A DNA stretch of 64,000 bases from Deltaproteobacteria bacterium. Lineage in GTDB: Bacteria; Desulfobacterota; Desulfobacteria; Desulfobacterales; Desulfosarcinaceae. Every line of letters starts with the position of its first letter. Position 1 is the first letter of the stretch. The stretch covers positions 28,015 to 92,014 of the forward strand of contig JAHLLR010000013.1 in NCBI GenBank assembly GCA_020444075.1, in the 5' to 3' direction. Below are positions 25,383 through 26,843 of this stretch, one piece after another. The translations under genes were made by a program, and so were the position numbers. The notes beneath the pieces are model-generated. The model was not told the origin of the DNA. It saw nothing but the letters and a program-made list of their open reading frames with translations, and did no database searches.

Positions 25383-26414
25383 TCAGCAACTGGTTTTAAA
25401 CGGTTCTTCCCTGCCGCATACTTTGAATATGGCCATAACCTGTTGGCAAAGCAGATCAAATTGTTCAGGGTAGAGGCTCTGGGCACCGTCGCTCATGGCT
25501 TCTTCCGGTTGATGGTGGACCTCTACCATCAACCCATGTGCATTGGCGGCTACCGCCGCACGGGACAGCGGCAGCACCTGATCCCGTCGACCGGCGGCAT
25601 GGCTGGGATCCACCACGATGGGCAAGTGACTCTCCTTTTTGACCACCGGTACGGCGGACAGGTCCAGGGTATTGCGGCTGTGATGGACAAAGGTGCGGAC
25701 TCCGCGCTCACACAGAATCACCTGGTGGTTGCCCTGGGCCATGATGTATTCAGCCGCCATGAGCCATTCATCAATGGTGGCGGCCATGCCCCGCTTGAGT
25801 AAAATGGGTCGGTAGGACTCCCCGGCCCGCTTGAGCAAGCTGAAGTTCTGCATGTTCCGGGTCCCAATCTGGACCACGTCAGCGTAATGTTCCACCAGAT
25901 CGAAGGTCTGAAAATCCATTACTTCGGTGACCACCGGAAGGCCGGTGTTCTCTCTTACCTTGGCCAGGATTTTGAGTCCCTCCTCCCCGAGTCCCTGAAA
26001 GGAATACGGCGAGGTTCGCGGCTTGAAGGCGCCGCCTCGGAAAAGATGGGCTCCGGCCTTTTTGACATGCCCGGCGATGGTCATGGCCTGGACTTCACTC
26101 TCGATGGCGCAGGGTCCGGCAATGATGGTCAGGTGGCCCTGGCCGATGGTGATTTCGCCAACCGGTATCAATGTATCCTCGGCTTTTGTCTCCCGACTGA
26201 CCAGTTTATAGGGTTTGGTAATGGGTACCGCTTCCTTGACCCCGGGCAAACCGAGGAACAAAGCTGGGTCCACCGGTCCTTTGTTGTTCAGCACGCCAAT
26301 GGAGACGCGATCCCCCCCGGGAATGGGCCTGGCTATGCAGCCTCGCCCCTCAATGATCTTGACTACCTGGTCAATCTGTTCAGGTGTCGCCGTTTTATCC
26401 ATCACCACCAGCAT
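25383..26414 (-). CDS. aroF: DAHP synthase (3-deoxy-7-phosphoheptulonate synthase, type I-beta)
   Basis: First enzyme of aromatic amino acid synthesis, condensing PEP with erythrose 4-phosphate. Residues 1-70 form the ferredoxin-like regulatory domain seen in Thermotoga-type enzymes (MLVVMDKTATPEQIDQVV). The barrel has IIAGPCAIES, FRGGAFKPRTSPYSFQG, QIGTRNMQN, LLKRG, CERGVRTF and VVDPSHAAGRR, carrying the metal ligands (Cys in GPCA, and the His and Glu of later strands). 343 residues is normal. A strong AGGAGG precedes ATG 26414. Upstream lies a leader peptide with tandem Trp codons and a terminator, which suggests regulation by tryptophan supply. It is not clustered with other aro or trp genes. 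Confidence 0.95.
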   Translation of the reverse strand: MLVVMDKTATPEQIDQVVKIIEGRGCIARPIPGGDRVSIGVLNNKGPVDPALFLGLPGVKEAVPITKPYKLVSRETKAEDTLIPVGEITIGQGHLTIIAGPCAIESEVQAMTIAGHVKKAGAHLFRGGAFKPRTSPYSFQGLGEEGLKILAKVRENTGLPVVTEVMDFQTFDLVEHYADVVQIGTRNMQNFSLLKRAGESYRPILLKRGMAATIDEWLMAAEYIMAQGNHQVILCERGVRTFVHHSRNTLDLSAVPVVKKESHLPIVVDPSHAAGRRDQVLPLSRAAVAANAHGLMVEVHHQPEEAMSDGAQSLYPEQFDLLCQQVMAIFKVCGREEPFKTSC

Positions 26415-26461
26415 GTTGTGCCTCCTTTGTTAAATGGGCCTCCGTTCATCCTGCCGGCCAG

Positions 26462-26490
26462 AAAAAAAAGGCCCGCACCCCGGGGCCCTT
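26462..26490 (-). terminator. Attenuator terminator upstream of aroF
   Basis: On the minus strand AAGG(G)CCC pairs with GGGCCTT around an 8-nt loop, followed directly by eight Ts, the classic shape of an intrinsic terminator. It lies between the leader ORF (stop at 26559) and the aroF ATG (26414), so it can only act on aroF transcription. An alternative pairing of CCGGATCCCC (26568-26577) with GGGGTGCGG (26473-26481) would disrupt it. Confidence 0.75.
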
Positions 26491-26497
26491 CAACTGG

Positions 26498-26533
26498 AAA
26501 CGGACCGTCGGGTTTTCGCCCGTTGGTCCGTTT
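26498..26533 (-). other. Strong hairpin in the aroF leader
   Basis: AAACGGACC (26498-26506) pairs perfectly with GGTCCGTTT (26525-26533), and an inner CGGG/CCCG stem (26509-26512 / 26519-26522) stacks on it. It sits between the leader ORF and the terminator. It could be a pause hairpin or a spacer that brings the antiterminator arms together. Confidence 0.6.
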
Positions 26534-26558
26534 GCTTGACATCGACATGTATCACATC

Positions 26559-26636
26559 TCATGCAATGGGGATCCGGCAGGCGCACCTGGTGGGTAAGCG
26601 CCACCAGCAAAACTTTTCTATCTCTGAAATGTTCAT
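26559..26636 (-). CDS. Trp-type leader peptide of aroF (25 aa)
   Basis: Short ORF below the length limit of the track. ATG at 26636, TGA at 26559, 25 residues with FCWWR at positions 9-13, that is Phe, Cys and two consecutive Trp codons (26601-26606). Tandem Trp codons are the hallmark of trp-operon leader peptides. The two Trp codons lie inside one arm of a perfect 7-bp hairpin (CTGGTGG/CCACCAG, 26587-26607), and an intrinsic terminator follows. The Shine-Dalgarno is weak (AGAAG), as is acceptable for leaders. The role (ribosome stalling when Trp-tRNA is scarce) is inferred. Confidence 0.7.
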   Translation of the reverse strand: MNISEIEKFCWWRLPTRCACRIPIA

Positions 26637-26843
26637 GTTCTTCTGCTTTTTCTTATAGTTACTTTACGTTAACGAATGCCTTGGCATATGGCATCCGTCG
26701 CAGTTATTGTCAACCGCTTTTTAAAATAAGGACCTTTGGTGATAATGGGCTTGACCCATTATTTTTTTAAACCGATGCAAAAAGAGACTTGACTTGAAGG
26801 CCGCTGTCATTATTGTCTTTCCCAAAAACCAAGGAGTGCAATC

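Follow-up and report, generated by a model that had tools for sequence, protein, structure and literature searches.

A probable tryptophan-sensing transcription attenuator in front of aroF in Desulfosarcina, with related leaders across the Desulfobacterota

The window, by which we mean the whole 64,000-nucleotide stretch of DNA that was analyzed, carries a stand-alone aroF gene on its minus strand, encoding a 343-residue 3-deoxy-7-phosphoheptulonate (DAHP) synthase. The protein scored 485.7 bits against the NCBIfam model NF006421 (cut-off 335) and 397.2 bits against TIGR01361, and is of class I-beta, the class of TIGR01361-type enzymes. Comparison with named genomes placed the window in the genus Desulfosarcina. 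A typA-like gene is convergent with aroF, and a gene for a small, FmdB-like zinc-ribbon protein is divergent upstream of it; both were named by reading the open reading frames (ORFs). The aroF start codon, an ATG, is at 26414, and the features at the locus are as follows:

25383–26414, minus strand: aroF, 3-deoxy-7-phosphoheptulonate synthase, class I-beta, 343 aa (NCBIfam)
26428–26421, minus strand: Shine–Dalgarno sequence of aroF, AAAGGAGG
26462–26477, minus strand: remainder of the intrinsic terminator H2, comprising the loop, the 3′ arm (region 6) and the U8 tract (26469–26462)
26478–26491, minus strand: region 5, the 5′ arm of the terminator H2 and alternative partner for region 4
26498–26533, minus strand: strong hairpin H1
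26498–26512, minus strand: region 4, the 3′ arm of H1 (CCCGACGGUCCGUUU)
26518–26533, minus strand: region 3, the 5′ arm of H1 (AAACGGACCAACGGGC), with 2:3 pairing across the aligned leaders
26570–26582, minus strand: region 2, the leader end, GCCUGCCGGAUCC, predicted to be free when the ribosome stalls and masked by a ribosome at the stop codon
26601–26606, minus strand: Trp control codons, two in tandem (UGG UGG), at distances of 48 and 45 nt from the last nucleotide of the leader stop
26559–26636, minus strand: leader peptide ORF of 25 codons, MNISEIEKFCWWRLPTRCACRIPIA (25 aa), with homologous peptides before aroF in congeners
26685–26713, minus strand: candidate promoter, TTGACA (26713–26708), 17-nt spacer, CATATG (26690–26685), by consensus match only

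The first-pass annotation described a 25-residue leader ORF with adjacent Trp codons in a perfect 7-bp hairpin, a second strong hairpin, and an intrinsic terminator with eight Ts in front of aroF. All of these were found. The ORF runs from 26636 to 26559 with its Trp codons, at 26606–26601, in the hairpin CUGGUGG/CCACCAG; the second hairpin is H1; and the terminator is H2 (26491–26466), whose eight Ts are separated from the aroF ATG by 47 nt. In the window, a long U tract is present on H2 only, and H1 lacks one. The predicted fold of the leader RNA was better than that of all 200 dinucleotide shuffles (z = −3.2). The promoter-like TTGACA-N17-CATATG was absent from the first-pass annotation; TTGACA-N17-CATAT is found at the matching site in four other Desulfosarcina leaders. 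On the plus strand, a terminator-like hairpin followed by T lies at 26741–26763, between the aroF promoter and the FmdB-like gene.

Orthologues of aroF, together with their upstream regions, were drawn from 60 related genomes plus named genomes. By a fixed rule, a leader ORF with Trp codons precedes aroF in 36 of the 61 regions from Desulfobacterota, compared to 1/37 from other phyla, which were mostly Acidobacteriota (Fisher p = 2.5e-9). Shuffled sequences gave a mean of 2.6 such ORFs and a maximum of 6 of 61, and the reverse strand gave 3/61. Chance was excluded as the source of the Trp leader because of this conservation and these controls. Leader peptides homologous to that of the window precede aroF in five congeners (L002, L003, L004, L006 and L007), and those that align include MNLSVIGKIWFWWWRWPMECACRFLIA, MNISVIGKLRFWWWRSTIGYAYRIPIA and MDLTMIGKRWFWWWRTTVGCACRIPVA. 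What is kept in other genera is the Trp run, the distance from Trp to stop and the hairpins, while the peptide is otherwise strongly variable; in relatives, the Trp codons mostly lie 36–60 nt from the end of the leader stop codon. In many relatives, the hairpin equivalent to H1 bears a U tract and is itself the terminator, and many have no H2; in Desulfosarcina, H2 is mostly present after H1. The proposal that a stand-alone aroF is under Trp-type attenuation is thus upheld by the conservation of the leader peptide, the Trp codons, the codon-to-stop distance and the terminator. A lack of such conservation of peptide or terminator, which the first-pass annotation had named as a finding that would count against it, was looked for, and conservation was found.

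The aroF leader and its terminators are missing in some members, including Desulfosarcina widdelii (L033, from the same genome as L008) and L009, apparently as a result of loss within Desulfosarcina. The aroF region of L005 has a gap like that in four trpE upstream regions (L147, from the window's own genome, and L137, L141 and L144, from three close relatives). In these trpE regions, neither the leader peptide nor the first hairpin is present, whereas the second terminator hairpin and a TTGACA resembling a promoter are retained. All are drafts, and the gaps in the five regions are possibly an assembly artefact.

Complementarity of the leader end (region 2) to the 5′ arm of H1 (2:3), and of the 3′ arm of H1 to the 5′ arm of H2 (4:5), was evaluated by comparing matched leaders with leaders in which the partners had been swapped, since shuffle tests of 2:3 in single leaders, most of them non-significant, are too weak in this G+C-rich region. 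The mean energy of the 2:3 duplex was −15.6 kcal/mol in matched and −13.4 kcal/mol in swapped leaders (28 leaders; 0/5000 permutations as low), and that of the 4:5 duplex was −18.1 and −14.2 kcal/mol, respectively (12 leaders; 0/5000). The 4:5 duplex is weaker in the window (−15.9 kcal/mol) than in the congeners (−19.5 to −22.4 kcal/mol). Relatedness and composition are not fully removed by the swap, yet the rival pairing of region 2 with H2 fails the same test: on 12 leaders, p was 0.10 for 2:H2 and 0.31 for region 2 with region 5, compared to 0.0006 for 2:3. When 22 leaders were aligned, 72% of the cells formed the 2:3 helix, compared to no more than 57% after a slide of 1–3 columns, and in a divergent case (L063), region 2 (UGCCCGCACACUUUUUU) tracks region 3 (CAAGAGGUUGCGGGC). 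Base-pair covariation in a MAFFT alignment was supportive, but blurred by register shifts, with H1 scoring higher when slid by one column. Across relatives, the leader end keeps its complementarity to the 5′ arm of H1 and not to H2, which makes the middle hairpin a component of the switch. The matched complementarity also points to a second alternative pairing of the hisL type, 4:5, between the two downstream hairpins.

At equilibrium, H1 is preferred to 2:3 in the full-length RNA of the window and of most relatives. Since 3:4 wins in most full-length leaders, which makes a test of 2:3 uninformative, folding of the nascent RNA was adopted; by the same token, a route through 2:3 and 4:5 must be kinetic. 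The ribosome footprint was taken to extend 13 nt downstream of the start of the A-site codon. With the ribosome at the first Trp codon, the predicted probability of 2:3 in the nascent RNA was at least 0.49 in 15 of 17 leaders, whereas placing the ribosome at the stop codon gave 0 in every one of the 17; the corresponding values for the window were 0.72 and 0. In untranslated RNA, the probability was below 0.25 in 12 of the 17 leaders, in line with a protection of region 2 by the Trp-codon region; the window is not among these 12. The full-length window RNA was also folded with constrained ribosome positions, as the first-pass annotation had proposed, and H2 was predicted to be absent at the Trp stall and formed with the ribosome at the stop (mean pairing probability 0.00 vs. 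0.53). These models predict an antiterminator that is mutually exclusive with its alternative and depends on the position of the ribosome.

We consider it very likely that this leader attenuates transcription of aroF by a ribosome-mediated mechanism that senses Trp-tRNA and works through a 2:3/4:5 relay. If charged tRNA-Trp is plentiful, the ribosome would reach the leader stop codon and cover region 2; both 3:4 (H1) and 5:6 (the terminator H2) would then form, and transcription would halt ahead of aroF. If charged tRNA-Trp is in short supply, the ribosome would stall on the two Trp codons and region 2 would remain exposed, pairing with the H1 5′ arm once that arm is transcribed; the released 3′ arm of H1 would then pair with the 5′ arm of H2, blocking H2, and aroF would be transcribed. 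This reading is based on how the leader is built, on its conservation, on complementarity that is matched within leaders for both 2:3 and 4:5, and on the finding, described below, that such leaders accompany tryptophan-pathway genes. The Trp leader in front of aroF is real, conserved and functionally coherent, and from this we infer the regulation itself, which presumably involves transcription and translation of the leader in vivo, stalling of the ribosome and sufficiently efficient termination.

The first-pass annotation arrived at the same attenuator with a different antiterminator, CCGGATCCCC:GGGGTGCGG, in which CCGGAUCCCC, at the end of the leader, would base-pair with H2 itself and H1 would be a passive spacer hairpin. 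Such pairing is possible, and in the window it is what the minimum-energy fold contains when the ribosome sits on the Trp codons: the leader end is paired with H2, H1 stays folded, and the probability of H2 falls to 0.00. This part of the claim stands, but the pairing is not conserved in relatives. It is unmatched across leaders in the swap test described above, and it has no counterpart in the many relatives that lack H2 and carry the U tract on H1 itself. Direct pairing as the sole antiterminator therefore seems unlikely to us. In the models, the terminator is broken by both routes, and the relay would be the conserved one, to which the direct route may add in the species of the window.

Two other readings would dispense with attenuation in cis. 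The terminators might be constitutive and the short ORF accidental, with aroF controlled at its promoter, for example by the TrpR homologue encoded in the genome; the loss of the leader from some congeners would fit such an arrangement. However, the Trp codons and their spacing are conserved far above chance, the same leader is found on other Trp-pathway genes, and TrpR was detected in just 2 of the 18 genera sampled, whereas leaders are found in many of those without it. We regard promoter control alone as very improbable. Also very improbable is the reading that the conserved ORF works chiefly in trans, as a small functional peptide or a released sRNA, for which Sinorhizobium meliloti offers a precedent, its trp leader peptide reportedly acting in trans (PMC7298713). 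The strong variation of the peptide between genera beyond its Trp codons, combined with the persistence of codon position and hairpins, argues against a role in trans, as does the location of the leader, among the best matches, in cis before Trp-pathway genes. The attenuator with its 2:3/4:5 relay is thus the reading that we retain.

A covariance model built from 22 aroF leaders matched 100 of 297 genomes of the phylum (E ≤ 0.01), with one match in the window's genome, and none of 38 genomes reached via the Acidobacteriota loci. The model also finds trpE leaders, with E down to 5e-14. In the 30 best loci, the downstream gene is aroF (14), trpE (6), trpD (3), trpB-like (3) or iorA (3), and one locus runs off its contig; at least four of the 30 derive from training leaders, and some of the trpD, trpB-like and iorA genes were named by similarity to scanned members. 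A Trp-run ORF is present in each of these 30 loci, which is partly built in, as the model includes the Trp codons; the identity of the downstream gene is not built in. The Trp_leader model of Rfam, RF00513, was not matched at the gathering score, either by the window or by 12 related loci, nor in 26400–26750 even at E up to 5. Rfam scans at gathering and relaxed thresholds gave no relevant family, and the T-box family had no match in the Rfam scan of the whole window. The genes aroF and trpE lie side by side in divergent orientation in two genomes (G013 and G033), a hint that their leaders share an origin. The Trp leader before the trpB-like genes supports a role for these genes in Trp synthesis. 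Trp-run leader ORFs also precede iorA, encoding the alpha subunit of indolepyruvate ferredoxin oxidoreductase, in L165, L166 and L176, which suggests that the enzyme operates in the biosynthetic direction there. In L180, the leader stands in front of a trpD with a fused N-terminal domain of AsnC type, named by eye.

Besides aroF, the window's genome encodes two class I-alpha DAHP synthases and a KDO8P-synthase-like gene; no type II DAHP synthase was found in it. One of the I-alpha genes (L117) is preceded by a Phe/Tyr-rich leader ending in ATYFGFYFYFSRGAPVVC and then a terminator-like hairpin (L117:982–1170, contig C51). This type of leader is conserved in the congeners L120, L122, L124 and L125, with a Tyr-rich version in L114, and is probably a Phe/Tyr attenuator on a second isozyme. 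The DAHP synthase isozymes thus appear to read different amino acids. The contrast that the first-pass annotation drew with TyrR/TrpR control in enteric bacteria is partly weakened by these two additional synthases and by the TrpR homologue. We think it probable that a phylum-wide family of Trp leaders, outside Rfam, constitutes a dispersed regulon, and that attenuators for different amino acids on the Desulfosarcina isozymes form an RNA-only counterpart of TyrR/TrpR. If so, a Trp leader on the I-beta enzyme and a Phe/Tyr leader on an I-alpha enzyme would mirror the isozyme logic of the enteric regulators.

In the incomplete body of literature that was searchable, no Trp leader turned up before a DAHP synthase gene or in Desulfobacterota, and a Trp switch before aroF and other tryptophan-pathway genes across the phylum is apparently undescribed. 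Vitreschak and colleagues, who surveyed proteobacterial attenuators in 2004, reportedly do not describe a Trp leader on a DAHP synthase gene. A survey of Rfam motifs from 2013 proposed a possible origin of amino-acid attenuators in Gammaproteobacteria (PMC3766115); abundant Trp attenuators, outside the Rfam models, are now placed in Desulfobacterota. The entry to the whole aromatic pathway would thereby be under Trp-tRNA control in a lineage of sulfate reducers.

In E. coli trpL, the leader ORF contains adjacent Trp codons, region 3 can pair with either region 2 or region 4, and an intrinsic terminator lies ahead of the gene (PMC1183508). The aroF leader shares the short tandem-Trp ORF, the 2:3/3:4 alternatives and the intrinsic terminator before the gene, but it has no match to RF00513, its target is aroF rather than trpE, its stop codon lies ≈14 codons past the Trp codons, and a second hairpin with a U tract follows. 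In the enteric hisL relay, six segments pair as AB, CD and EF or as BC and DE, with EF as the terminator (PMC10989985). The six-segment relay proposed for the aroF leader is similar, with Trp in place of His codons, an H1 that may bear a U tract in relatives, and another gene and phylum. Attenuated or putatively attenuated DAHP synthase genes are known elsewhere. In Corynebacterium glutamicum, aroR-aroF is subject to ribosome-mediated attenuation through Phe-Tyr-Phe codons and responds to Phe limitation (PMC11802643, PMC4046766); the gene has the same name, but the window leader has Trp codons and the sequences are unrelated. The uORFC-13-1 motif before aroF in Acholeplasma, a proposed attenuator with Phe codons from one genus and environmental sequences (PMC8632094), likewise combines a conserved upstream ORF with a terminator, whereas the window leader reads Trp. 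The trpE leaders of Desulfobacterales have the same architecture of Trp leader ORF and hairpins, but control trpE and mostly end in two successive terminator-like hairpins. By analogy with these systems, the mechanism would be of the trpL type with a hisL-like six-segment relay added, and what is new here would be the variant on aroF in Desulfobacterota.
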